Assembly: GCA_031265345.1 (NCBI GenBank)
Contig: JAISCU010000393.1
Location: forward strand, 1-16,156
Length of the DNA: 16,156 bases
Origin: Bifidobacteriaceae bacterium
Lineage (GTDB): Bacteria > Actinomycetota > Actinomycetes > Actinomycetales > WQXJ01
Direction of reading: 5' to 3'
Notes under the pieces: model-generated
What the model saw: the letters and a program-made list of their open reading frames with translations, nothing else
Told to the model about the DNA's origin: nothing
Databases searched by the model: none
Part shown: positions 1,668 through 15,585 of the stretch, piece by piece
Position numbering within the stretch: the stretch's first letter is position 1
Layout: each line of letters begins with the position of its first letter
Program-made: the position numbers and the translations under genes

Positions 1668-4600
1668 ATGTTGCCACGCGTCCAGCCACGCCGTGATCCC
1701 TCGAATCCCTCGAACCGACCAGACAGCGCGAACCGCTGGCCCAGGCGTCGGCGCTGGGCACGCCCAGTCGCCATGGCCGCGACCTTCGTCACGGCGGTCA
1801 CGGGGGTGGTGGTCATCCAGAGCTGGGGCGGCGCCGAGCGCTCGCAAGCGGTGACGTACAACGCCGCCAACTGGAACGCGACCGGCACCTTCTCCAAGGA
1901 CGAGTTGTGGGTGGTCGGCACCGGAGACGCGTACACCAACCCGTACGTCATCACGAACCCGTGGACCGCGACCTCGGCGGACTTCATCAGTCGGCTGAGG
2001 CCCGGCTACAACAAGACAGGAGCGGTCAACGGCAACGGTTGCGGCGGCGCCTGGGAGAACCTCGCCATGGGGCCGGCCCTGATGGCCGAGGGCGACCAGC
2101 GGATCGCCCACCTGGGGTGGACCTCGACCGGCCTTGGCGGGGGCTTGGTGTTCTCCGGGGACGGCAACTGCTACGGCGTCACCGACCTCACGCCGGCCGC
2201 GACCAGCGTGAACGACTTCGACACCACCTGGGGCGGAGAGATCAACCAGAAGACCGGCGAGGTCTACCTGGTCAGCCAACCGATCGAGTACTTCGACGGC
2301 GATTCGCTGACCAACAACCCGCGCTTCAACATCGTCAAGGTCTCCAAGGCAACTTCGGGCTCGACGCCTTACACGGTCACCCGGCTGGCAGCTTCCCCCG
2401 CCACGCCGCCGGCGCCCGGCGCGAAGAATCTTGCCCAGGCCGCCCAGGCGGCGGGCAAGACCGGCGCGGTGGACGGTAACTGGCGGCTCGGATCGGACAT
2501 GGCGATCGACGCCAACGGCAACGCCTACCGAATGGCCCGCTTCGACCGGACCGGCCCGGACTACTGGGCGCTGATCCGTTTCAACATTCCCCGCGTGGGC
2601 GGCGCGCCGCAGTCAACCGGCTGGACCTACAACGTGGTCCGGGTTTTCGACAACTATGAAGCCACCGACGTCTGGGGGATGGCGTTCCTCAACGGCGCCT
2701 TGTACACCGGCCACGCTGACCTGGGAGACCAGATCATTCGCTGGGACCCGCTTTCCGGCGCCAACACCTACCTCGGAGTGTTCCTTCCGATGCTCGACAT
2801 GGGGTCGGCCCAGATGGCGCCTGTGATCGAGGGCAAGGTCTACCGTGACGTCGATGGCGACGGCGTGATCGAACCGGGGGACGACGGCCTGGGCGGCGTG
2901 GTCCTGGAAGTCTGGCAGCAGACCAGCGCCTCATCCGCGCCCGAGCTCCGGGGCACGCTGACCACCGACAGCGACGGCTCCTACTCCGCGCTGCTGCCTT
3001 CGGCGACAGACGATTTCTATCTTCGGTTGCGCCCCACCCAGATCAACGGCGTCAACGCGGGCCAGTCCTACGCCTCGGCCGGCAGCTACCGGGTGGACAG
3101 TGGCCAGCCCGCGAACGTGGTGACCCCGCTCTGCTTCGCCTCGGGAGGCGACTACCAACCCCGAACCACGTCCGGCGCCTGTCGCGGGGCGCGGGCGGAC
3201 GGCATCGACCCCCCGACGGTGACCGACCCGACCCTTGCCACGGGCGGCGCCAACACTGTGACCAAGATCGACATGAACTCCGACCTGGCTGTCGTGACGG
3301 CGGACTTCGGCCTGACCACTGGCCTGTCCTGGGGCGACGCACCGGACACTTACAAGACCTCGAACCAGGCCCTGGGGCCGTACGGCGCGCCGGACAGCCT
3401 TCACCTCGGCGCCACCCAGGCGCACTATCCGGACGGGCAACCATCGGCCGGCGCCAACTCGCATGACGCCACCGACGACGGCCTGTTCGTCACCCCCAAG
3501 CAGGACGACGGGACCTACGAGGAATCCGATTGGGTCCTGGCCCAGAACCAGGTCCTGACCACCGGCGGCCAGTACCGGTTCCGGGCCAAGGTTTCCGGCA
3601 CGGCCATCGCCCAAGCCACCGCCAAAGCCTGGCTCAGCCCGTTGGCCAGCGGAACCGGGCAGGCCGCGACCGCGCTGACGGACCAACTGCTCAGCGGCAC
3701 GCCGGACGCCGACGGCTATGTCTACGGCGACTACACGGTCGGCGCCCAGGGACCACAACAAGGCTTGGCGAGCGTCTACGCCCGCGCCAGAGTCGGCCAG
3801 ACCAGCACTTTCACCAGCGCTTCGCGCGGCAGCGCCAACCCGGACACCGACGCCTGGGTGCCCCGCGGGGAGGTCGAGGACTACCGCTTGGCGGTCGCCA
3901 ACGGCACCGTCAGGGTCAAAGCCCGCACCATCGGCGGCCGGGCCGCTCACGTCAACCTGGCGCTCGGCAACATCTTCGGGCTGGCGCCGTCCCAAGCCGA
4001 CACTTCGATATTGACCAACGCTGACGGTAGCTACGCCCGCGACTCTGGGGCACATGCCGTGGCCAGCATGGCCCAAGAGGTGGCGATCACCACGATCGGG
4101 GTGGGCGGTCCCACCGCCAACGCCATGCACGGCTGGAAACTGCTGGGCCAGGGAACCAGCTGCCACGATTCGGCCACGGGGACACCGGTCGCGGCCACGA
4201 TTCGCAACAACACCCTGGCGCTGGGGGCGCTCGACGCGCTCGGCGCCACCGGCCCACGCGACGTGACCTGCGAACTGAGCTACGGCGCGTCGGTCTCGGC
4301 GACTTATTCGACCCTCGAGGTCACCCCGGAGCCTGACGCGGCCAATCCGCTTACAGCCGGGACCAGCACTTATGACGCCAGAGTCACCGCCAAAGGCGTC
4401 ATCACCCCAGCCGAAGGGCCGGCCGTGCAAGTGCCGGTGCCGGGCGCGCAGATCGCGCTGACGCTGACCCCCGTCGGTGGGGACGGGACCGCCACCGGCG
4501 CGTCTTTCACCGCCAACAACGCCCAGTCCCACACCTGCACCCTCGACGACCAGGGCGAATGCACGGCCACCGTCCAGGCCAGCCATCGCGGCGCCTACCT

Positions 4601-7600
4601 CCTGGCCGCCACAGCTGAAGCCGGGTCGGTCGAGGTCGGCTCGAAGACCCTCTACTTCGCCGAGGGCGCGCCCAGCGAGGGCCGCTCCTCCGCCACCGTC
4701 ACCCAGACCGCCGACCAGTTGGCCAATTACCAAGCGCCCGGCTCCACCGCCGCGACCTGGGGCAAGCAGACCATCACCGTGACGGTCCGGGACGCCAACG
4801 ACGCGCCTGTCACCAACGCCGCCGCCGCCCTGACCGCTGCCGCCGCCAGCTCCGATCCCCTGAGCGGCTCGGGCCTGGCCTTCGCGGGCGGCGGCGCCTT
4901 CGCTTGCTCGGTCGCACCTGTCGGCGGCGCCTGTTACACCGGCGTCTACGCCCTGGACGTGTATTCGTCCAAGGCCGGCCCGCGCGCCATTGTCGTCACC
5001 CTGGGCTCCGCGCCCACTGGTTTCGAGGTCACCAACGCGGACGCCCCGCCGTCGAAGGTCCTCTTGGCGCCGTTCAAGACCCCGCCCGCCAGCGCCCAGG
5101 ATTCGACCTTGGTCGTCTCGCCTTCGACGCCCGCGGACCGCCCTGACGACCCAGACGACGTGCCCGATGGCGTGCCAAACGTTCTCACCACCGGCGCGGC
5201 CTACACCGTGGTCGTCACGGCCTGGGACGCCGGGCGGAACAACAAGGCCGCTGGCGCGGCGGTCACCCTGGCCTTGACCGGGGCCGACTGCGCCGCCACC
5301 TTCGCTGGCGGCGGCACCGGCGGCTCCGGCGGCGGCACCACAGCCGGGGGCGACACCTCGGCGCTGGGCCGCCTCGAGACCACGGTCGTGTCGAATGCCG
5401 CCACCACCTGCACTTTGACGGCGACGGTGGCGGGCGGCGTGCCGGGCGGTTCGCCGAAGACCTTGAAATGGGAGGATGCCGCCGTCGATCCCGACAACTC
5501 GCACACCTGGTTCGACGTGTCGACCGCGGACATAGTGGCGAACGGGCAGGCCACCGGCACCATCACGGTGTCGCTCTACGGACGTAACGGGCTCCCCGTC
5601 ACCACCGTCGCCAACCTGTCGGCGTCCGGGCCGACCGGCGGCGAGGTGACGGTGGGAGGTTTCACCAACAACGGCGACGGCACCTATCGAGCCACTTTCA
5701 CCGGCACCAGCGCCGGGTCGAAGTTGATCTCGGTGCTCCAGGGCGCGGTGGAGATCGGGGTCAAGACGCCGGGCGGCAACGACACCGCCAACTTCGTCCC
5801 CGGAGCGGCCTCGGCCGAGGACTCGTGGCTGGTCCAGCCGACCGATTCGGCCACAGCGGACGGGGACCAGAAGACAACCATCGGCGCTCGCGTGTATGAC
5901 AAGAACGGCAACCCGGCCAACAGCGGCAAGGTGGCCTTCACCATCCCGAAGGACTTGTCCGTGGGCTCAACCAACGGCCCGGCCACCATCGAAGTGGAAA
6001 TCGTGGGCGGGTGGGCTCAGCTCCAGGTCGCTTCGCGTGTCTCGACCAAGGTCCACGGCACCTACGTGGTGACGGCCAAGATTGGCGCCGTGGCCATCGC
6101 CTCGGTGCGCGACCAGGCCGACGAGACCTCCGAACTACGCACGAACGGCCAGGTCAACCCCGTGTTCGTGGCCGGATCGGCGGATCCCGGCACTTCGACC
6201 CTATCTATCCCGACGGCGGCGGGCGGGGCCACCAAGGAGGTGGGCGGCACCGAGAAGCACCGCGTCCAGATTCAAGTCGAGGACAAAGACCACAACCCGG
6301 TCGCGGACGCCGCGGTGCGCTTCGACTACACCTGCGTGGGCCAGGCGGGCCACACCTGTTCCGGGTCATGGACCGGGCTCACGACCGACCCGGACGGGAT
6401 CGCCTACTACGAATGGGGCACCACCAAGGCGTCCACCTGGACCGTCGGCGGGTTCCTGGGGACCGAGGAGGTGGCGGACTCGCCCGGCACCGCCACCTTC
6501 GACCCAGGTCCCCCGGTGATCGGCCCCGGCAAGACGCGTCTGGAATCCCCGACCAGCCCCGCCAAGGCCAACGGCTCCGAGACCCAGACGGTGCTGGCCC
6601 ACGCGATAGACGGCCAGGGCAACGCCGTCACGGGCCAGACGGTCACGTTCACCGTCCCCGCCGACGTGCGCGCCAATGGCGTCACCGGTCCGGACACCGT
6701 GGACGCCCAGACCGACCAAGACGGCATCGCCCGCCTGGTGGCGACTTCGGAACTGGTGGGCTCCTACCAGGTCAGGGCCAAGATCGGCGCCACCCAGATC
6801 ACTCAAGGGGACCCCGCCCGGATCGAGTTCGTCAACACCGACGTGGCCCTCGACCGCTCAAGCCTGACGGTGACAACAGCCCCAGCAGAAAAGCAAGTCA
6901 AGACCGAATATCATGAAGTCAAGGCCGAGCTGACCGACACCACCGGCCAGCCCTACCAACCGGCCACCGAAGTGACGTTCTCCTACCGCCTGGGCGCAAC
7001 CGGCGCTTGGACCACCGGCCCAGCGCTGACCACCTCCAACGGCACGGTCACCTGGGCCAGTTTCACCGTCCCGGTGGCGGGCACCTACCAGGTCCGCGCC
7101 ATGATCACGGCGGGCCAGGTCGGCACCACCCAGGAGGCCAAGTTCAAAGCCGGCCCGATTGACGGCGCCAAGACTCTCGCCTCGCTGACCGTGTCCTCGA
7201 CCCCGGTCGCGGCCGACGGCGTGGCCACGGTCCCAGCCTCGATGAAAGCCCAGGACGACGAAGGCAACCCGGTCAAGGACACGGCGTTGACGTTCGAACT
7301 GGTCTACACCGGCGCCGGACCCTACTTCACCTCGACGGCCGGCCAGACGGCATCGGGCACCTCCGGCCCCGACGGCATGGTCCGGGCGAGCATAGCCTCC
7401 CTCCACGCCGGGAGCTACGACGTGCGCGGCAGGCTGGGCGCGGACACATCGCCCGCGCCGTACCCCAAGGCGAACTTCTCCAAGGATGTGCCGGACCCCG
7501 GCCGATCCGAGTTCTCGGTGGCGCGGACCAGCACCAACACGTCGGCGACCAAAGCCATCGCCGACGGCTCTGACTCCTACACCGCCACCATCCTCCTGCG

Positions 7601-10600
7601 CAACGCCGCCGGGACCCTGATCAACGGGGTGGGTGGGACCCTCTACTTCACGCCTAAGGACATCCCCGGTGCAATAGCACAGACGTTCCCATTCGTGGTG
7701 GGCCTCGACGGCGCACCGCAGGGTCAGGCGCAGGTGGTGCTGACCGCGCTGAAGGCGGGCGTTTGGGAGGTCTCCGTGAAGATCGGCGCCGACCCGGTGG
7801 CGACCACGCCGGGCGGCCCGGTGACGGTGGTCGAATCCGAGTTTGAGCCCGACCCCGTCCACCACGGCCCGGCGCACAGCCGCCTGGTCTCCCCGTCCGC
7901 GTCCGCCCGCGCCAACGGTTCGGACACGCAAGTTGTCACGGCCCACGTCATGGACGTCAACAACAACCCCTGGAAGTTGGCCGATGCCGTGTTCACGATC
8001 CCCGCGAACGTCCGGGTCGGCGCGCAGGTCGGCCCCGGAACCGTCACGGCCAAGACTGACGACCAGGGTGTGGCGACTTTGACCACCACTTCGACGGTGG
8101 TGGGCGAATACGACATCACCGCACGGGTCGGGGCGGTGCCGTTGACGCAAGGCTCGCCCGCAGTTGTCCAGTTCACCAACGCCGACCTGTCGCTGCTCAA
8201 CTCACTGTTCACGATCCCGACGGCTGGTGTGGCCAAGCAGGTGTTGGCCGAGTCGCACACGCTGGAGGTGGAGTTGTTCGATTCGACCGGCAACGTGTAC
8301 ACGCCTTCGGTGAATGTGACGTTCAGTTATCGGTTGAGGGGGACCGCCGCGTGGGTCGCGCGCACGCCGTTGGCGACCGTGGGCGGGGGCGTGGTCTGGG
8401 CCGGGTTCACTGTCGGGGTGGCGGGCGAGTACGAGGTCAAGGCTGAGATCCCGTCCGGCCAGGTAGGGACGGTCCTGACGGCCAGGTTCGAGCCCGGCCC
8501 GGTCGATCCGGGCTTGACGAGGGGCTCGTTCGGGTTCACCACCGGCAAGGCGTTGTCCAACGATTCCGCGACGCATTCGGCCTGGGTGACGGTTCAGGAC
8601 GCCGAGGGCAACCCGATCCGGTTGACTAAGGTCCGGTTCACGCTGGACTCGGCCAAGGCGGCGCATTTTGTTGACCCGGTGACGCATGCGGACTTGGGCA
8701 AATCGGTCGAGGTGGAGTCCTCGGTCACGGGCCTGGCGCGGGTGTGGCTGGCGGACGGGACCACCGAGACCGTCCACCTGGGCGCTGCTCTGGGGGCGGA
8801 CCCGGTCGGTGCGGCCGATTTCGTGTTCGCCACCGACGCGCCCTCGGCGGTGGACTCTAGCTGGGTGGTTGTGCCGTCCGGCCCCCGCGTGGCGGACGGC
8901 GTCCAGTCCTTCGCGGCGACCGTCACGGTGCGTGATGCCAGCCCCAGCCATCTGCTGGTGCCGGGCGCTGCGGTCGGTTTCGAGGTGCCCTTGGCGGTCC
9001 GGGTCGTGGAGCCCGGCCCGTATCTGACCGGGCCGGACGGGAGGGTCACGGTGCGCTTCACCTCCGAGGTGGCCGCCAGTTACGATGTGCGGGCTCTGAT
9101 CGGCTCGGACGGGATCGAACCGGACCCGAGGACCATCACCTTCGAACCCGGCGCGATCAGTTTCGAGGACGGCAAGACCACTCTGCGCGGACCGGGCGTG
9201 ACTGCCGTCGCCAACGGCTCCGCGCCTTTGACGGCCACCGCGACCGTCCGCGACGCCAAGGACAACCCGGTGACGGGCGCAGTGGTGGAGTTCTCGGTCC
9301 CGGCTGGCTTGACGGCCCGCGCGCCTGGCGGCGATGTTTCTGGCCCCACAGTGGTGGAGGTCCCGGTCAATCCGGTCACGGCCGTGGCGACGGTGGCTTA
9401 TGTGACCACGACGGCTGGCCCGTACAACGTCACCGCCCGCGCTAAGAAGGGGGCTGGCGGCGCCTACCAGGCGATCCGCGACGGTTCGCCCGCGAGGCTG
9501 GTCTTCACCCATGGCCCGGCAGACCTGACCGTCTCGGTCATCGCGAAGGACCGTCCGGGCCCGCTGGTCGCTGATGGCGACCAGGCCTACGGCGTCACCG
9601 TCTCGCTGTTCGACTCGGTCGGCAACCCGTACACCGTCGCGGGCGTGCCGGTGACGGTCACTTACCGGTTGGGGGCGCGGATGATCGCCGAGGATCTGGT
9701 CACCGACGCTGCCGGGGCGGCGGCGACGGCTTTCGCCACCACCGAGGCTGGTTCGTGGCGGGCCACCGCGGACGTGGGCGGGCAGGCCGTGGAGGTCGGT
9801 TCTCCGCTGGCTCTGCCGTTCGAGCCCGGACCGCCGAGCGCCGACGTATCGGTGTTCGACGCCACCACCGGCAACGTTCTGGCCGATGGCAGCGCTGCGC
9901 ATTCCGCCTGGGTCGTTGTGACCGACGCGCAAGGCAACCCGGTTCCCAGCCGCGCCGTCGCGTTCACGGTCGCGACCGGCTCGCCGAGCGTGCCGGGGCC
10001 GGTGCTGACGGGCGGCTCTGCGACCGCCACGGTGGCCAGCTGCGACCCGGCCGTGGCGGGAGCCCCGGCCTGGTGCGACCAGGCTGGGAAGGCGCTGGTC
10101 TATCTGACGTCCAACGAGCCCGGCTCGTTCGCGGTCGGCGCGACGTTGGGCGGCGCGACGGTCAACGGGTCGCCGCGCGAGGTCAGTTTCGAGTCCGGCC
10201 CGGCGGACGAGGTCTTGTCTAGTTACGTGATCACGCCTCTGGCGACGGCCGCGGACTCGGTGTCGGTTCCGGCCGACGGGGCGGCGTCCTACACGGTGAC
10301 TGTGACGGCCCGGTCGGTGGCGGGGTTGTTGGTGCCGGGTGCGCAGGTGCGGCTGGCCGGTTTGGACGGCGCGGTGGCTGTGGGCCCGTCGCTCTCGGGG
10401 GTCACCGGGTCGCCCTCGAGCGGCAGCTTCGGGACCTTCGGTTGGCGGCTCAGCTCCGCCAGCGCGGGTTCGTTCAGCGGGCGCGTGCAGGTGTCCACGG
10501 CCGACGGCTGGCGCGACGTGGGCGGTCCGTTCCTGGTGCGGTTCGCGGCGACCGGGCCGGTGGCCGGGAACTCGCGGCTGACCATCCCGACGGCTGCGGG

Positions 10601-12218
10601 CGGCGCTACGAGGGTCGCGGACGGTTCGCAGGCCCACCGGGCTCAGGTGGAGCTCCGCGACGCCAACCACAACCTGGTGCCCGGAGCGGAGGTCGTGTTC
10701 GCCTGGGCCTACCCCGACGGGGGCCGGACGGTGAGCGGAACCTGGACGGCGGCATCGGGCATAGATGGCGTGGCGGTCTACGAGTTCTCCTCGACCAGGG
10801 CTGCGACCTGGACCGTCGCCGCGACCGTGGGCGGCGGGCCGGTCGCCGGATCGCCGCAGGAGGCGACCTTCGTGTCCGGGCCGCCGGTCTGCGCTACCAG
10901 CGAATTGATCTCCCCAACGACCTCCGCGCGGGAGAACGGCGAGGGTGTGCAGGCGGTCACAGCCATCCTGCGGGACGCCTTCGGGAACGCGGCCAGTTGC
11001 TGGGATGAGGGCTTGGAGGCGCCGTGCGAGGTCGCGTTCGCCATCCCGGAGCGGACCTGGATGGGCGAGGGCGCTGCCCGGATCTCGGGACCGGCCGTCG
11101 TGGCGGTGCGGGCCGGGCTGGCGGGCGACGCAACCGGGGCCGGGCAGGCGGTCATCGAGCTGTACGGCGACGAGGGGCTCTGGCAGGTCTTCGCGTTGAT
11201 CGGCGGCGAGCCTGTGACCAGGGCGGACGGCGTGGCCAGCCCGGATGGGGCGCCGGTGCCCGCGCGGGTCCGTTTCACCGACGCGATCCCGCCCGGCGCG
11301 CCCCTGCTCGACCCGTCGGACGGCCAGCATGTGACGGGGATCGTGGCGGAGTCCGACTTGTTGGACGCCGCCGCGGGTGACCTGGTGGCGGTGGTGGTCC
11401 ATCCGGTGACCGGCGAGGAGCTGGGCCGCTGCGTGGTCGAGGCGGACGGCACGTTCGACTGCGCCCTGCCCGGGCTGGGCGAGGGCGCGACCATCCATGT
11501 GCGGATCGACGACTCGGCGGGGAACGCCTCGGAGCACGCCGAGATGTCGGTGGACGCGACCGCTCCCGGCGTGCCGTCGGTCGAACCGTCCGACGGCTCC
11601 GACTTGGTGGGCGAGGGCGAGGAGCCCGGCGACACCATCATCGTGACCGATCAGGACGGCAACGAGCTCTGCCGCACCACCGTCGGGGAGGACCTGGGCT
11701 GGTCCTGCTCGTTCGACCCGCCGTTGAAGGAGGGCGACATGGTCACCATCACGGAGCGCGACCCGTCCGGGAACGTCACCGAGCGGCCGTGGCGGATCGG
11801 CGTGCCGCGCCTGGTGGTGGACAAGCCGGTGGCGTACCGGGGCGACAGGCAGACCGCCACCGGGTTCAACTTCCAGCCCGGCGAGGACGTGACCGGCGTG
11901 ATGCGTTCCGATCCGGTGGCCCTGGGCTCGGCCAAGGCCGATCCGCAGGGCAAGGTGGTTTTCGCCTGGGTGATCCCGGAGGCAACCGAGTTCGGCGCGC
12001 ACAAGGTCGAGGCGACGGGTTCGGCCTCGGGCGTGTTCGAGGCCGGCTTCACGGTCCAGACCCTCCCGCTCGCCGTCCAGGCCCTGCCCTTCACCGGCGC
12101 CGACGGCCTGGTCGGCGCCGCCGGCTCAGCCCTCGGGCTGCTGCTGGCGGGTTGGCTGCTGCTGGCGGCCGCCCGCCGTCGCCGCGCCCCCTCCCCTGAC
12201 GGGCTGGCCGCACCATAG
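1668..12218 (+). CDS. Giant LPXTG-anchored modular surface protein with about 20 invasin-type Ig-like domains
   Basis: A 3516-residue secreted, wall-anchored protein, probably an adhesin or stalk; its ligand is unknown. AAAGAGG (1654-1660) lies 7 bp before the ATG. Residues 1-61 form a long signal peptide: Arg-rich n-region (25-32), hydrophobic core (34-51), likely cleavage after Ala61 (SQA). Residues 62-385 resemble a beta-propeller, a weak assignment. From 386 an SdrD-B/prealbumin-like domain carries a calcium-type loop (DVDGDGVIEPGD). A GEVED domain spans about 554-742 (GEVEDY at 734-739). From 881 to about 3205, about 20 Big_1-type domains of roughly 115 residues follow, recognisable by ADG, DAxGNPV and AGSYxVxAxIG motifs. 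Two other Ig-like domains start at 3208 and 3298, and a stalk domain covers about 3383-3463. The sorting signal is LPFTG (3473-3477), then a hydrophobic segment and RRRR. Domain blocks are duplicated and codon preference shifts around 8 kb. It is transcribed alone as far as visible. Confidence 0.95.
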   Translation: MLPRVQPRRDPSNPSNRPDSANRWPRRRRWARPVAMAATFVTAVTGVVVIQSWGGAERSQAVTYNAANWNATGTFSKDELWVVGTGDAYTNPYVITNPWTATSADFISRLRPGYNKTGAVNGNGCGGAWENLAMGPALMAEGDQRIAHLGWTSTGLGGGLVFSGDGNCYGVTDLTPAATSVNDFDTTWGGEINQKTGEVYLVSQPIEYFDGDSLTNNPRFNIVKVSKATSGSTPYTVTRLAASPATPPAPGAKNLAQAAQAAGKTGAVDGNWRLGSDMAIDANGNAYRMARFDRTGPDYWALIRFNIPRVGGAPQSTGWTYNVVRVFDNYEATDVWGMAFLNGALYTGHADLGDQIIRWDPLSGANTYLGVFLPMLDMGSAQMAPVIEGKVYRDVDGDGVIEPGDDGLGGVVLEVWQQTSASSAPELRGTLTTDSDGSYSALLPSATDDFYLRLRPTQINGVNAGQSYASAGSYRVDSGQPANVVTPLCFASGGDYQPRTTSGACRGARADGIDPPTVTDPTLATGGANTVTKIDMNSDLAVVTADFGLTTGLSWGDAPDTYKTSNQALGPYGAPDSLHLGATQAHYPDGQPSAGANSHDATDDGLFVTPKQDDGTYEESDWVLAQNQVLTTGGQYRFRAKVSGTAIAQATAKAWLSPLASGTGQAATALTDQLLSGTPDADGYVYGDYTVGAQGPQQGLASVYARARVGQTSTFTSASRGSANPDTDAWVPRGEVEDYRLAVANGTVRVKARTIGGRAAHVNLALGNIFGLAPSQADTSILTNADGSYARDSGAHAVASMAQEVAITTIGVGGPTANAMHGWKLLGQGTSCHDSATGTPVAATIRNNTLALGALDALGATGPRDVTCELSYGASVSATYSTLEVTPEPDAANPLTAGTSTYDARVTAKGVITPAEGPAVQVPVPGAQIALTLTPVGGDGTATGASFTANNAQSHTCTLDDQGECTATVQASHRGAYLLAATAEAGSVEVGSKTLYFAEGAPSEGRSSATVTQTADQLANYQAPGSTAATWGKQTITVTVRDANDAPVTNAAAALTAAAASSDPLSGSGLAFAGGGAFACSVAPVGGACYTGVYALDVYSSKAGPRAIVVTLGSAPTGFEVTNADAPPSKVLLAPFKTPPASAQDSTLVVSPSTPADRPDDPDDVPDGVPNVLTTGAAYTVVVTAWDAGRNNKAAGAAVTLALTGADCAATFAGGGTGGSGGGTTAGGDTSALGRLETTVVSNAATTCTLTATVAGGVPGGSPKTLKWEDAAVDPDNSHTWFDVSTADIVANGQATGTITVSLYGRNGLPVTTVANLSASGPTGGEVTVGGFTNNGDGTYRATFTGTSAGSKLISVLQGAVEIGVKTPGGNDTANFVPGAASAEDSWLVQPTDSATADGDQKTTIGARVYDKNGNPANSGKVAFTIPKDLSVGSTNGPATIEVEIVGGWAQLQVASRVSTKVHGTYVVTAKIGAVAIASVRDQADETSELRTNGQVNPVFVAGSADPGTSTLSIPTAAGGATKEVGGTEKHRVQIQVEDKDHNPVADAAVRFDYTCVGQAGHTCSGSWTGLTTDPDGIAYYEWGTTKASTWTVGGFLGTEEVADSPGTATFDPGPPVIGPGKTRLESPTSPAKANGSETQTVLAHAIDGQGNAVTGQTVTFTVPADVRANGVTGPDTVDAQTDQDGIARLVATSELVGSYQVRAKIGATQITQGDPARIEFVNTDVALDRSSLTVTTAPAEKQVKTEYHEVKAELTDTTGQPYQPATEVTFSYRLGATGAWTTGPALTTSNGTVTWASFTVPVAGTYQVRAMITAGQVGTTQEAKFKAGPIDGAKTLASLTVSSTPVAADGVATVPASMKAQDDEGNPVKDTALTFELVYTGAGPYFTSTAGQTASGTSGPDGMVRASIASLHAGSYDVRGRLGADTSPAPYPKANFSKDVPDPGRSEFSVARTSTNTSATKAIADGSDSYTATILLRNAAGTLINGVGGTLYFTPKDIPGAIAQTFPFVVGLDGAPQGQAQVVLTALKAGVWEVSVKIGADPVATTPGGPVTVVESEFEPDPVHHGPAHSRLVSPSASARANGSDTQVVTAHVMDVNNNPWKLADAVFTIPANVRVGAQVGPGTVTAKTDDQGVATLTTTSTVVGEYDITARVGAVPLTQGSPAVVQFTNADLSLLNSLFTIPTAGVAKQVLAESHTLEVELFDSTGNVYTPSVNVTFSYRLRGTAAWVARTPLATVGGGVVWAGFTVGVAGEYEVKAEIPSGQVGTVLTARFEPGPVDPGLTRGSFGFTTGKALSNDSATHSAWVTVQDAEGNPIRLTKVRFTLDSAKAAHFVDPVTHADLGKSVEVESSVTGLARVWLADGTTETVHLGAALGADPVGAADFVFATDAPSAVDSSWVVVPSGPRVADGVQSFAATVTVRDASPSHLLVPGAAVGFEVPLAVRVVEPGPYLTGPDGRVTVRFTSEVAASYDVRALIGSDGIEPDPRTITFEPGAISFEDGKTTLRGPGVTAVANGSAPLTATATVRDAKDNPVTGAVVEFSVPAGLTARAPGGDVSGPTVVEVPVNPVTAVATVAYVTTTAGPYNVTARAKKGAGGAYQAIRDGSPARLVFTHGPADLTVSVIAKDRPGPLVADGDQAYGVTVSLFDSVGNPYTVAGVPVTVTYRLGARMIAEDLVTDAAGAAATAFATTEAGSWRATADVGGQAVEVGSPLALPFEPGPPSADVSVFDATTGNVLADGSAAHSAWVVVTDAQGNPVPSRAVAFTVATGSPSVPGPVLTGGSATATVASCDPAVAGAPAWCDQAGKALVYLTSNEPGSFAVGATLGGATVNGSPREVSFESGPADEVLSSYVITPLATAADSVSVPADGAASYTVTVTARSVAGLLVPGAQVRLAGLDGAVAVGPSLSGVTGSPSSGSFGTFGWRLSSASAGSFSGRVQVSTADGWRDVGGPFLVRFAATGPVAGNSRLTIPTAAGGATRVADGSQAHRAQVELRDANHNLVPGAEVVFAWAYPDGGRTVSGTWTAASGIDGVAVYEFSSTRAATWTVAATVGGGPVAGSPQEATFVSGPPVCATSELISPTTSARENGEGVQAVTAILRDAFGNAASCWDEGLEAPCEVAFAIPERTWMGEGAARISGPAVVAVRAGLAGDATGAGQAVIELYGDEGLWQVFALIGGEPVTRADGVASPDGAPVPARVRFTDAIPPGAPLLDPSDGQHVTGIVAESDLLDAAAGDLVAVVVHPVTGEELGRCVVEADGTFDCALPGLGEGATIHVRIDDSAGNASEHAEMSVDATAPGVPSVEPSDGSDLVGEGEEPGDTIIVTDQDGNELCRTTVGEDLGWSCSFDPPLKEGDMVTITERDPSGNVTERPWRIGVPRLVVDKPVAYRGDRQTATGFNFQPGEDVTGVMRSDPVALGSAKADPQGKVVFAWVIPEATEFGAHKVEATGSASGVFEAGFTVQTLPLAVQALPFTGADGLVGAAGSALGLLLAGWLLLAAARRRRAPSPDGLAAP

Positions 12219-12364: not shown

Positions 12365-12400
12365 CAGGGATCCTGCGTTTTCGACCGCCCGCCCGCGAGT
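12365..12400 (+). repeat. 36-bp direct repeat, copy 1
   Basis: Identical to 12429-12464 at 34 of 36 positions. Each copy begins CAGGGATCCTG, continues GTTTTCGACC and ends in a GCCCGCCCGCG stretch. A further GGATCC with similar flanks sits 30 bp upstream (12338-12343). Read on the minus strand the core (TCGAAAACGCAGGATCC) faintly resembles the 31-bp repeat core further right (TCGAGACCGCTGATCTGC), so it may be an older member of that family. That relation is tentative. Confidence 0.65.
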
Positions 12401-12428
12401 ACGCGACCACCAGCACCGAGTTCTGTGT

Positions 12429-12464
12429 CAGGGATCCTGGGTTTTCGACCGCCCGCCCGCGGGT
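12429..12464 (+). repeat. 36-bp direct repeat, copy 2
   Basis: Second copy of the 36-bp repeat, 64 bp after the first and in the same orientation. It differs only at two positions (C/G after GGATCCTG, and A/G near the right end). The spacing of 64 bp is about twice the period of the other arrays in this island. Confidence 0.65.
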
Positions 12465-12518
12465 CGACGGCACGCGCCGACCGGGCCAGGGAGCCACAGC
12501 CGCAAACCAAACGATATT

Positions 12519-12756: not shown

Positions 12757-12911
12757 CAAAGCGCCCACGCCGAGTCCGTCGATTCGCGCGCCGTTGTTCA
12801 TCGAGGCCGCTGTTCTGCGCGCCCTCCTTCGTCGAGACCGCTGATTCGCTTGGCCGATCTCGTCGAGACCGCTGTTCTGCGTTCCCCTCTTCATCGAGTC
12901 CGCTGTTTTGC
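12757..12911 (-). repeat. 31-bp tandem repeat array, left arm (five units)
   Basis: Five units at exact 31-bp spacing: 12757, 12788, 12819, 12850 and 12881. Each ends with a conserved 20-bp core close to CRTCGAGACCGCTGWTYTGC, preceded by about 11 variable bases. The outermost unit is the most decayed. The array is in opposite orientation to the one at 12969-13092. The period is close to three turns of B-DNA, so each core would face the same side of the helix. Confidence 0.85.
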
Positions 12912-12968
12912 GTCCGACCGGTTTGGCGTCTTCGCTGGTCAGCGCGTTATGGGTGTTCCTGGAGACGT

Positions 12969-13092
12969 GCAGATCAGCGGTCTCGACGACATGGAGGAAG
13001 CAAATCAGCGGTCTGGACGAGTTCACGCGCGCAAATCAGCGGTCTCGACGAGTTCACGCGCGCAGAAGAGCTGTCTCGACGGACCGGGGCGT
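12969..13092 (+). repeat. 31-bp tandem repeat array, right arm (four units)
   Basis: Four units at exact 31-bp spacing: 12969, 13000, 13031 and 13062. The core GCAAATCAGCGGTCTCGACG is the reverse complement of the left-arm core. Units two and three are identical at 30 of 31 positions including the normally variable part, so that duplication is recent. The fourth unit is decayed. The 57-bp centre between the arms (12912-12968) contains CGCTGgtCAGCG, itself a palindrome. Confidence 0.85.
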
Positions 13093-13182
13093 GCAGGCCA
13101 CCGGAAACTGCTCCGACGGCCCACGGCATAGCGTCGATAGCCTTTCCGTGGCGCGGCACCCGGTCGCGTCGGCTGCCGTGAA

Positions 13183-13250: not shown

Positions 13251-13584
13251 TCAAAAGAATCGAAAGAATCAAAGACTATCAAAGAGGCCTGGTTGCGCCG
13301 CGCAAGATCGAACACAGTTACGTTACGCGCCGCCGCCGCACGACGATCAGTAGCATCGGTCCGATCATGGTCGCACTCACTGGCAGAATGGAAGCCATCG
13401 ACAACCGGCCCGAACCGGCACCGTACGGTGTACTTGCTTGCGACAGGCAAGCTAGGGCCGGTTTCGATCACCCGAAATCCCAGGTTATGGGCCGGAACGT
13501 GTGCTTCACGGTGCGCGTCGTTGGGGCTTGGTGGAGGGCTCTGCCGACGGTAGTGCGGGTGGTCCGCCCGGCGGCCGGTCGACT

Positions 13585-14205: not shown

Positions 14206-15585
14206 ATGCTGACCACCCGAGATTTCTCGCAGATCAATCCGATGCTGGCGCGACCGGGCGAGCCCGTCACGGCCCCCCGGACGCGGCTCGGCGATGTCGA
14301 ACTGTTGCCGGAGACCGCTTACCAGCTGGTGCACGACGAGGCGATGCTCGACGGCAACGCGCGGCTGAACCTGGCCACGTTCGTGTCCACTTGGATGGAT
14401 GACTACGCCGACCGTCTCTACGCTGAGGCGTTCGACAAGAACGCCATCGACAAGGACGAATACCCGCAGACGGCGGCTATCGAGCAATACTGCTGGCGGA
14501 TGCTGGCGGACCTGTGGCACGCGCCGGACCCGGCCAAGACGATCGGCACCTCGACCACCGGCAGCTCGGAGGCCTGCATGCTGGGCGGGCTGGCGCTGAA
14601 GCGGCGCTGGCAGCAGCGGCGCCGCGAAGAGGACAAACCGACCGACAAGCCGAACCTGGTCATGTCCTCGGCGGTGCAGGTCTGTTGGGAGAAGTTCTGC
14701 AACTACTGGGACGTGGAGCCCCGCTATGTGCCCATCTCCATGGACCACAAGGTCCTCGACGGGGCCGACCTGGACAGCTATGTCGATGAGAACACCATCG
14801 GCGTGGTGGCGATCATGGGTGTGACCTACACCGGCATGTACGAGCCGGTGGCTCAGATCGCCTCGGCCCTCGACCGCATCCAACTGGAGACCGGGCTCAA
14901 CGTCCCGATCCATGTGGACGCCGCCTCGGGCGGGATGATCGCGCCGTTCTGCCAGCCCGACCTGGTGTGGGATTTCCGCCTGCCGCGCGTGGCGTCCATC
15001 AACACCTCCGGACACAAGTACGGCCTGGTCTATCCGGGGCTCGGTTGGGTGGTCTGGCGCGACCAGGCGTTGTTGCCGGAGGACCTGATCTTCAAGGTCT
15101 CCTACCTTGGCGGCGACATGCCGACCTTCGCCCTCAACTTCTCCCGGCCGGGCGCCCAGATCCTGCTCCAGTACTACCTGTTCCTGCGTCTTGGCCGGGC
15201 TGGTTACACCAGGGTCCAGGAGGGCTCGCTGGACGTGGCCCGGTTCCTGGCCCTGTCGATCGGCGAGTTGGAGCCGTTCGAGCTGTGGAACGACGGCTCC
15301 GACATCCCGGTGTTCGCCTGGTCCTTGCGTTCCGACCAGGCGCGCCGCTGGTCGCTCTACGACCTGTCCGACCGCCTGCGCATGCAGGGCTGGCAGGTCC
15401 CGGCCTACCCCATGCCCGCCTCGCTGGAGGACCTGACCGTCCAGCGGATCGTGGTCCGTAACGGCCTGTCCATGGACCTGGCCGACCGCTTCATGGCCGA
15501 GTTCCGTTCTTCTGTCGACTACCTCGACCGGCTCGAAGGGCCGCTGCCCGCAGCGTCCGGCCGGTCCGGCGGTTTCCGCCACTAA
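14206..15585 (+). CDS. gadB: Glutamate decarboxylase (PLP-dependent)
   Basis: Converts L-glutamate to GABA and CO2 in the cytoplasm, consuming a proton, as the enzymatic half of the glutamate acid-resistance system. The 459 residues match the usual length (about 466 in E. coli GadB). Group II PLP-decarboxylase motifs are intact: TTGSSEACMLGG (117-128) around the phosphate site, VTYTG (206-210), HVDAASGG (236-243) with the pyridine-nitrogen Asp238, and SGHKYG (268-273) with the Schiff-base Lys271. The chain ends in Phe-Arg-His. In E. coli GadB a C-terminal His (465) closes the active site at neutral pH, so His459 may do the same here, implying acid-switched activity. AGGAGG (14193-14198) lies 7 bp before the ATG. 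gadC follows 70 bp later in the same direction, a probable operon. No promoter is obvious upstream. Confidence 0.98.
   Translation: MLTTRDFSQINPMLARPGEPVTAPRTRLGDVELLPETAYQLVHDEAMLDGNARLNLATFVSTWMDDYADRLYAEAFDKNAIDKDEYPQTAAIEQYCWRMLADLWHAPDPAKTIGTSTTGSSEACMLGGLALKRRWQQRRREEDKPTDKPNLVMSSAVQVCWEKFCNYWDVEPRYVPISMDHKVLDGADLDSYVDENTIGVVAIMGVTYTGMYEPVAQIASALDRIQLETGLNVPIHVDAASGGMIAPFCQPDLVWDFRLPRVASINTSGHKYGLVYPGLGWVVWRDQALLPEDLIFKVSYLGGDMPTFALNFSRPGAQILLQYYLFLRLGRAGYTRVQEGSLDVARFLALSIGELEPFELWNDGSDIPVFAWSLRSDQARRWSLYDLSDRLRMQGWQVPAYPMPASLEDLTVQRIVVRNGLSMDLADRFMAEFRSSVDYLDRLEGPLPAASGRSGGFRH

Follow-up and report, generated by a model that had tools for sequence, protein, structure and literature searches.

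What is the array of 31-bp repeats, mirrored about a centre, that lies in this stretch of Bifidobacteriaceae DNA (16,156 nucleotides in full, hereafter the window)? An earlier note, made from the sequence alone, left its function open between a partition-like site, an array of nucleoid-protein sites, the end of a mobile element and an RNA. We examined the layout of the array, searched related genomes for similar ones, and compared the copies in sequence, spacing and pairing.

Layout of the array

Between positions 12770 and 13079 of the window, five 31-bp units face four inverted ones across a core that reads GCGTCTTCGCTGGTCAGCG (12926-12944). In a frame anchored on the TCGA of the units, the five occupy 12770-12924 and the four 12956-13079:

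12770..12924, forward strand: left array, five 31-bp units reading 5'-TCGAGACCGCTGATTTGC...; units start at 12770, 12801, 12832, 12863 and 12894, the outermost being the most decayed
12926..12944, forward strand: core GCGTCTTCGCTGGTCAGCG, with one mismatch to GCGTTTNCGCWGGTCAGCG and the dyad CGCTGgtCAGCG inside it at 12933-12944
12956..13079, reverse strand: right array, four 31-bp units in the opposite orientation to the left ones; units start at 12956, 12987, 13018 and 13049
13080..13110, reverse strand: possible, weakly indicated decayed fifth right unit

The step of 31 bp is exact in all nine units. When the conserved sequence GGNNCTCGAYGA is searched with up to three mismatches, units start at 12767, 12798, 12829, 12860 and 12891 on one strand and at 12978, 13009, 13040 and 13071 on the other. 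With the same tolerance the window contains seven matches to the 17-mer ATCAGCGGTCTCGACGA, whereas 200 shuffles gave 0.05 on average and never more than one. Considered as an inverted repeat, the arms measure 126 nt each (12786-12911 and 12969-13094), are 72% complementary and enclose a spacer of 57 nt. The nine units carry a mean of 1.54 bits of information at positions 1-20 and of 0.66 bits at positions 21-31, and decay is strongest in the outermost units. These results bear out the description in the earlier note of nine units at an exact 31-bp period, five facing four inverted ones, with 20 conserved and about 11 variable positions and with decayed outer units.

Two other claims of that note stood in part. 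The near-identical pair of right-arm units exists (30/31 in the frame of the GGNNCTCGAYGA starts) but consists of the second and third units, not of the innermost. The symmetric centre CGCTGgtCAGCG is present, the midpoint of the inner anchors (12940) falling 1.5 bp off the centre of this dyad, but it is not general: among the array elements checked, the complete dyad was found only in the window. Its arm bases match at 5/5 in the window and in a hairpin-type element of genome G010 (see below), and at 2-4 of 5 in the other 13 elements.

Occurrence in related genomes

The pyridoxal-dependent decarboxylase gene of the window (14206-15585, PF00282), which we take to encode a glutamate decarboxylase, is 76-82% identical to genes of five Bifidobacteriaceae MAGs, the closest found; from their isolate names, these presumably come from termite guts. 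What we call the family comprises 18 genomes of one Bifidobacteriaceae group, grouped with the first of these five MAGs. Mirrored arrays were found in nine of the 18 genomes at about 56 places, some of which may be the two ends of a single locus split by the assembly, and both arms were visible at 48 of them. All or part of the element occurs at 16 places in G017 (both arms at 14), 14 in G016 (10), 10 in G012 (10), six in G008 (four), three in G003 (three), three in G010 (three), two in G004 (two) and one each in G006 and G001 (one each). One-armed places are mostly cut by contig ends. In the other nine family genomes, arrays were not found with the patterns used, which were not exhaustive.

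Several searches contributed to this count. Blastn with the window array as query detected an array of 31-bp period in G008, a different species (69% identity over 138 bp, E 3.8e-7). Queries of one element per lineage yielded 14 places in G016, 15 in G017 and six in G008 plus one in G003; locus L167, missed by blastn, raises the G017 total to 16. Further arrays were identified in G001, G006 and G012, together with a second type in G003, and a scan for the geometry described below then added those of G004 and G010 and more copies in G003 and G012. The spaced pattern CTCGAYGA-N23-CTCGAYGA, at up to one mismatch, matched in 12 of the 18 family genomes (18 matches in G016, 18 in G017 and 11 in G008); its reversed control gave 0-1 per genome, and several of the single matches are due to chance. 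This pattern matched in 56 of 396 Actinomycetales genomes; outside the family the matches appear to be mostly coding, with similar strings recurring in several genomes. Genome G176 presents two overlapping matches in a row. A search of the genome contigs for the window's own unit as a tandem 31-bp pattern gave no match.

Among the loci read, the mirrored arrays of G003, G008 and G016 have the same orientation as in the window. In G017 the string CTCGATGA is flipped, while the motif TCGACCTGAAC of the same units agrees with the window orientation. The earlier note had held that unit numbers and orientations varying at random around no conserved centre would argue against a defined element: the number of units is indeed variable, but the arrays keep their mirrored layout and their phase, and the centre in part.

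Viral contigs contained the exact 17-mer ATCAGCGGTCTCGACGA in seven stretches with one match each and no array, which we read as chance. A blastn search of 72,556 plasmid and 50,697 phage records with the window array gave no match at E 1e-5, which tells against an origin as plasmid or phage DNA.

Core and unit sequences across lineages

The centres of the arrays align, unevenly, on GCGTTTnCGCwGGTCAnnG. Relative to this 19-base consensus (one position free), 11 of 14 array elements have one to five mismatches and three, all from G016, have seven to eight; the G016 centre retains only CAGGTCA of the core. The units differ in sequence by lineage: TCGAG at positions 1-5 and T at position 15 occur in 8/8 lineage consensuses, which leave out G017 and are framed on the TCGA anchor itself, and little else is common to them. 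In G016, loci L183 and L184 are hybrids: to the left of a core they have a palindromic repeat (GTCATCCCGGACTTGATCCGGGATC in L183) that replaces or precedes the left array.

The core pattern, at up to one mismatch, was present in all 18 family genomes with 3-50 matches each (0-4 for the reversed control), not all of them arrays. In G010 it lies within a conserved element of about 170 bp at 16/16 sites fetched, mostly flanked on both sides by a local hairpin; L325 in G009 resembles this hairpin-core-hairpin element. The 16 sites read in G010 (L307-L322, of 50 pattern matches) often have CTAG at both the start and the end of the element, and by eye this CTAG seems to provide the stop codon of a gene at L308 and L322. 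Locus L379 in G003 contains a copy of the core element in its hairpin form, and about 240 bp from it begins a Y1_Tnp (RAYT-type) gene. The 40 loci that we read around core or blastn matches comprise the 16 of the G010 hairpin-type element, the similar L325 and L335, the G006 array (L338), nine that are ordinary by eye (L323, L324, L336, L337, L339-L342 and L346), the unassigned L326, L343, L344 and L345, and eight in G001 (L327-L334) without the pattern at up to one mismatch.

Of 139 Actinomycetales genomes outside the family, 60 contained a close variant of the core (69 of 149 genomes overall); its reversed control matched in two. None of the 12 out-of-family loci read had arrays. At four of them the core lies inside a predicted hairpin (strongly at L349, L354 and L356, weakly at L352), and three of these four are within about 60 bp of a tRNA gene; such hairpins may perhaps be terminators.

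The window itself has two further core-like sequences. At 1439-1478, TCTGACCTGCGCAAACAC lies between the inverted sequences TTATCCACAGGG...CCTGTGGAAAA, which look DnaA-box-like. At 1001-1180, a second core-bearing repeat without 31-bp arrays (CTAACCCACCGTGGC ... CCTGCGCAAACGCGGCC) is by eye like a repeat in G006 (L338).

Near-constant spacing around the core

We measured, in 20 elements, the distance from the G of GGT in the core, taken as the zero point, to the TCGA that anchors the units. Typically, TCGA lies about 42 bp to the left and about 46 bp to the right of GGT and recurs each 31 bp thereafter. The left anchor was found at -41 to -43 in 14 of 20 elements, one unit further out but in phase in one, at -53 in four (all from G016) and beyond the contig in the remaining one. 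The right anchor was found at +45/46 in 10 of 20, in phase but further out in two, and at +35 in five of the six G017 elements, the sixth having it in that phase; two elements had no in-phase TCGA. The deviating lineages, G016 and G017, are 11 bp off, which is about one helical turn; in G017 this depends on the choice between two TCGA per unit: we used the TCGA flanked by sequence that matches the left units, and the alternative register (+21) would not be one turn off. At L364, one outer unit is one base out of phase. The elements combine a constant 31-bp spacing with a near-fixed distance to the core, with the register of G017 ambiguous. At 10.5 bp per turn, a period of 31 bp makes about 2.95 turns, which puts successive sites on the same side of the helix.

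The spacing was also searched as a pattern, TCGA-N27-TCGA-N38-GGTCA-N41-TCGA-N27-TCGA with up to two mismatches. Among 396 Actinomycetales genomes it gave 17 matches in five family genomes, and in the 378 non-family genomes two matches, with two for the reversed pattern. The offsets were derived from family members, so the 17 matches are not wholly independent of the measurements, although 15 of them lie outside the 20 measured elements. They represent a floor, because elements with different offsets, among them that of the window, escape the pattern. Whereas the interspersed repeats of bacteria are usually characterised by their sequence or by a hairpin, this element is best defined by geometry: its sequences drift and its distances hold. 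This makes it a natural experiment in the co-divergence of DNA and protein, and a concrete probe for a putative nucleoid-binding or DNA-processing protein. A geometry-only pattern can find more members that have little sequence in common.

Variation and placement of the copies

At positions 16-31, identity across the ten G012 copies is 0.92-0.93 for the innermost units and 0.42-0.82, without a monotonic trend, for the outer ones. Within the elements, identity is 0.60 between adjacent units of an arm, 0.48 between non-adjacent ones and 0.45 between opposite arms. Between three and nine units were detected per arm, and the second halves of left and right units differ. Because the inner units are conserved and neighbours are alike but opposite arms are not, these comparisons indicate that the copies share a central module and that each arm was probably remodelled separately by local tandem duplication. 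Over 21 elements, the share of recognisable units drops from 0.95 for units beside the core to 0.05 for those in eighth position, and identity decreases with distance (Spearman -0.38 over 128 units beyond the first that have at least half identity), the few remaining far units being well kept. These 21 elements (22 for the logos) include seven of the ten G012 copies and none from G017, and the consensus was built from inner units, which favours those. The suggestion of the earlier note that the array grew near its centre agrees with units that become rarer and less consensus-like outward, but not with the G012 copies, where the innermost units are the most conserved and duplication within the arms appears to be local.

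The copies are intergenic and near housekeeping genes. Among the neighbours of arrays, at distances of up to about 1.4 kb, are ftsZ, hrcA, gyrA, metK, a GATase gene and rpsJ, and by ORF calls all kinds of flanking-gene orientation occur. The array upstream of rpsJ in G008 is absent in 10 other loci whose upstream sequence extends over at least 1190 bp, where the best 62-bp run at period 31 has 26-37 matches or less, compared to 59 in G008. Likewise, the array near the decarboxylase gene in the window is absent from the contigs of all five relatives.

Pairing between the arms

A single strand of 186 nt folds at -94.8 kcal/mol (z -6.0 relative to shuffles), which is expected because the array is an inverted repeat. 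Left-right covariation did not exceed the control in any of three genomes: the paired fraction was 0.705 vs 0.698 ± 0.005 for permuted halves in G016 (8 copies), 0.613 vs 0.617 ± 0.005 in G017 (13 copies) and 0.736 vs 0.732 ± 0.006 in G012 (10 copies). Columns with double changes were within the controls as well (9 vs 7.7, 22 vs 22.6 and 13 vs 12.2, respectively). For G016, 10 of 12 copies were given, L183 (whose left half is unrelated) and L184 being left out, and eight fitted without gaps or cut ends; for G017, 14 of 16 were given and 13 used; G008, with five given and two used, was uninformative. The case for a maintained hairpin is weakened by these comparisons, and of the cruciform or hairpin transcript raised in the earlier note there stands the strong fold of one strand, but not pairing maintained between the arms.

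The only Rfam match in the window, DUF3800-IX at 13401-13469 (46.1 bits), lies outside the array. No Rfam family covers the array, and the array loci of 17 relatives gave one tRNA only and no DUF3800-IX. The lack of arm covariation and of an Rfam match counts against a pairing RNA. Against a terminator, ORF calls place some copies between divergent genes, L163 beside hrcA being one; in such placements Pfam usually confirms one side only.

Comparison with known repeat families

REPINs consist of two inverted REPs that pair with compensatory changes and are linked to a RAYT (PMC3116915). Judging from the accessible part of that source, the arrays resemble REP doublets of the REPIN/RAYT system in being small, dispersed, intergenic, inverted and present in many copies, some in ordered clusters, but differ in that each arm is a tandem array, the arms do not covary and no Y1_Tnp gene was found in six of the nine array genomes. 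PF01797 (Y1_Tnp, RAYT-type) was detected in six of the 18 family genomes, three of the nine with arrays and three of the nine without; it was not found in the array genomes G001, G004, G006, G012, G016 and G017, which are fragmentary, so that the gene may be missed. A RAYT-dependent REPIN is disfavoured by this distribution of the RAYT gene and by the lack of compensatory pairing.

BIMEs share regularly spaced repeats in both orientations and reportedly bind protein; their orientation alternates, whereas the mirrored arrays flip once, at the centre, as far as the available text of the source describes them (PMC2817692). The pneumococcal BOX is likewise an intergenic repeat built of modules, whose tandem modules vary in number, but it is variable inside with fixed ends in the part of its description at hand, whereas the mirrored arrays have a fixed centre and vary outside (PMC3049150). 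The clt/TRS sequences of Streptomyces TraB are short repeats that also occur on actinobacterial chromosomes and are bound by a hexameric translocase; they are 8-bp repeats, and a mirrored 31-bp layout is not mentioned in the accessible portion of that source (PMC4170104). Within what these sources offered in part, REPIN, BIME, BOX and clt/TRS each differ from the arrays in a defining feature. The literature searched, to which subscription journals mostly do not belong, contained no description of a mirrored 31-bp layout in its accessible text, and the available part of a paper on termite Bifidobacteriaceae uses 'repeat' once, for CRISPR (PMC11707648).

Alternative explanations

The main rival is a non-autonomous mobile element, MITE-like or REPIN-like, that exists through self-copying and in which the arrays are transposase or recombinase sites or mere passengers. 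Many paralogous copies per genome with a central module in common would follow from it, as would the 90% identity of L156 and L162 in G016 over 515 bp including one flank, the presence of arrays at rpsJ in G008 and at the window's decarboxylase gene but not in 10 and five comparable loci, and the Y1_Tnp gene in three array genomes (G003, G008 and G010). However, alignment limits differ from one pair of G012 copies to the next, arms fade outward, and no target duplication was noticed in an informal look; no Y1_Tnp gene was found in the other six array genomes, and three of the nine genomes without a visible array possess one; and likeness between lineages is greatest at the centre and in the geometry, not at the ends. 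We regard this explanation as a serious candidate that is nonetheless rather unlikely to be the right one. Copying by some recombinase or transposase is, moreover, compatible with a protein-binding array.

A neutral minisatellite, in which functionless slippage products derive from an ancestral inverted duplication, agrees with the variable unit number (3-9 per arm in ten G012 copies), the likeness of adjacent units and their outward loss in frequency and consensus. It does not readily account for a 31-bp phase and near-constant offsets in lineages whose units have little in common except TCGAG and a T at 14-15, and we consider it improbable. We give still less credit to a structured RNA or DNA cruciform formed by the pairing of left and right arms, which seems very unlikely: the arms are inverted and fold strongly, and the same core is flanked by hairpins in G010 and G009, but arm covariation was lacking in three genomes (8, 13 and 10 copies, among which weak constraint could escape), the second half of the units is not the same in the left and right arms of G012, and no Rfam family covers the array.

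Proposed mechanism

Among the readings offered by the earlier note, the array of protein-binding sites came out best supported, by the constant 31-bp phase and the near-constant distances between anchor and core, with 11-bp exceptions in two lineages; the partition site, IS end and RNA gained no direct support. A protein array nucleated at the core appears to be the best fit to the geometry and the arm data, because the core distance is near-constant, the exceptions are of 11 bp, the arms are independent and the units are lineage-specific. Our preferred reading, which we hold to be plausible though somewhat short of an even chance, is that the window element is a copy of a dispersed intergenic element and forms a helically phased, putatively protein-binding array nucleated at the core. 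Protein binding is here argued from geometry. The core would be recognised by a candidate factor. An oligomeric DNA-binding protein, whose sequence preference would differ by lineage, would fill sites of about 17-20 bp outward in both directions on one face of the helix. The resulting nucleoprotein filament or wrap might serve chromosome organisation or some DNA transaction.

Tandem duplication alone can hold a period, and it is only the core-to-unit offsets and the 11-bp exceptions (two lineages, with G017 ambiguous) that argue for helical phasing. Against the role of the core, its conservation is only partial and it also occurs without 31-bp arrays in G010, G009 and hairpins of other Actinomycetales. 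More tentatively, and with doubts that outweigh our confidence, we propose a bacterial chromosomal site of a novel type, dispersed and bidirectional, whose core would nucleate two outward, helically phased protein arrays, the site sequence and the putative protein diverging together from lineage to lineage while the geometry stays fixed.

Other features of the window

To the left of the array, at 12365-12470, the window contains two direct copies of AGGGATCCTG(C/G)GTTTTCGACCGCCCGCCCGCG. Positions 1668-12218 encode a protein of 3516 aa with 12 Big_1 and seven Invasin_D3 stretches and, by eye, a C-terminal LPFTG; it is probably a surface protein. Finally, an antitoxin-like gene (with a MazE match below the cut-off) and a PIN-domain gene at 141-970 form a probable toxin-antitoxin module.
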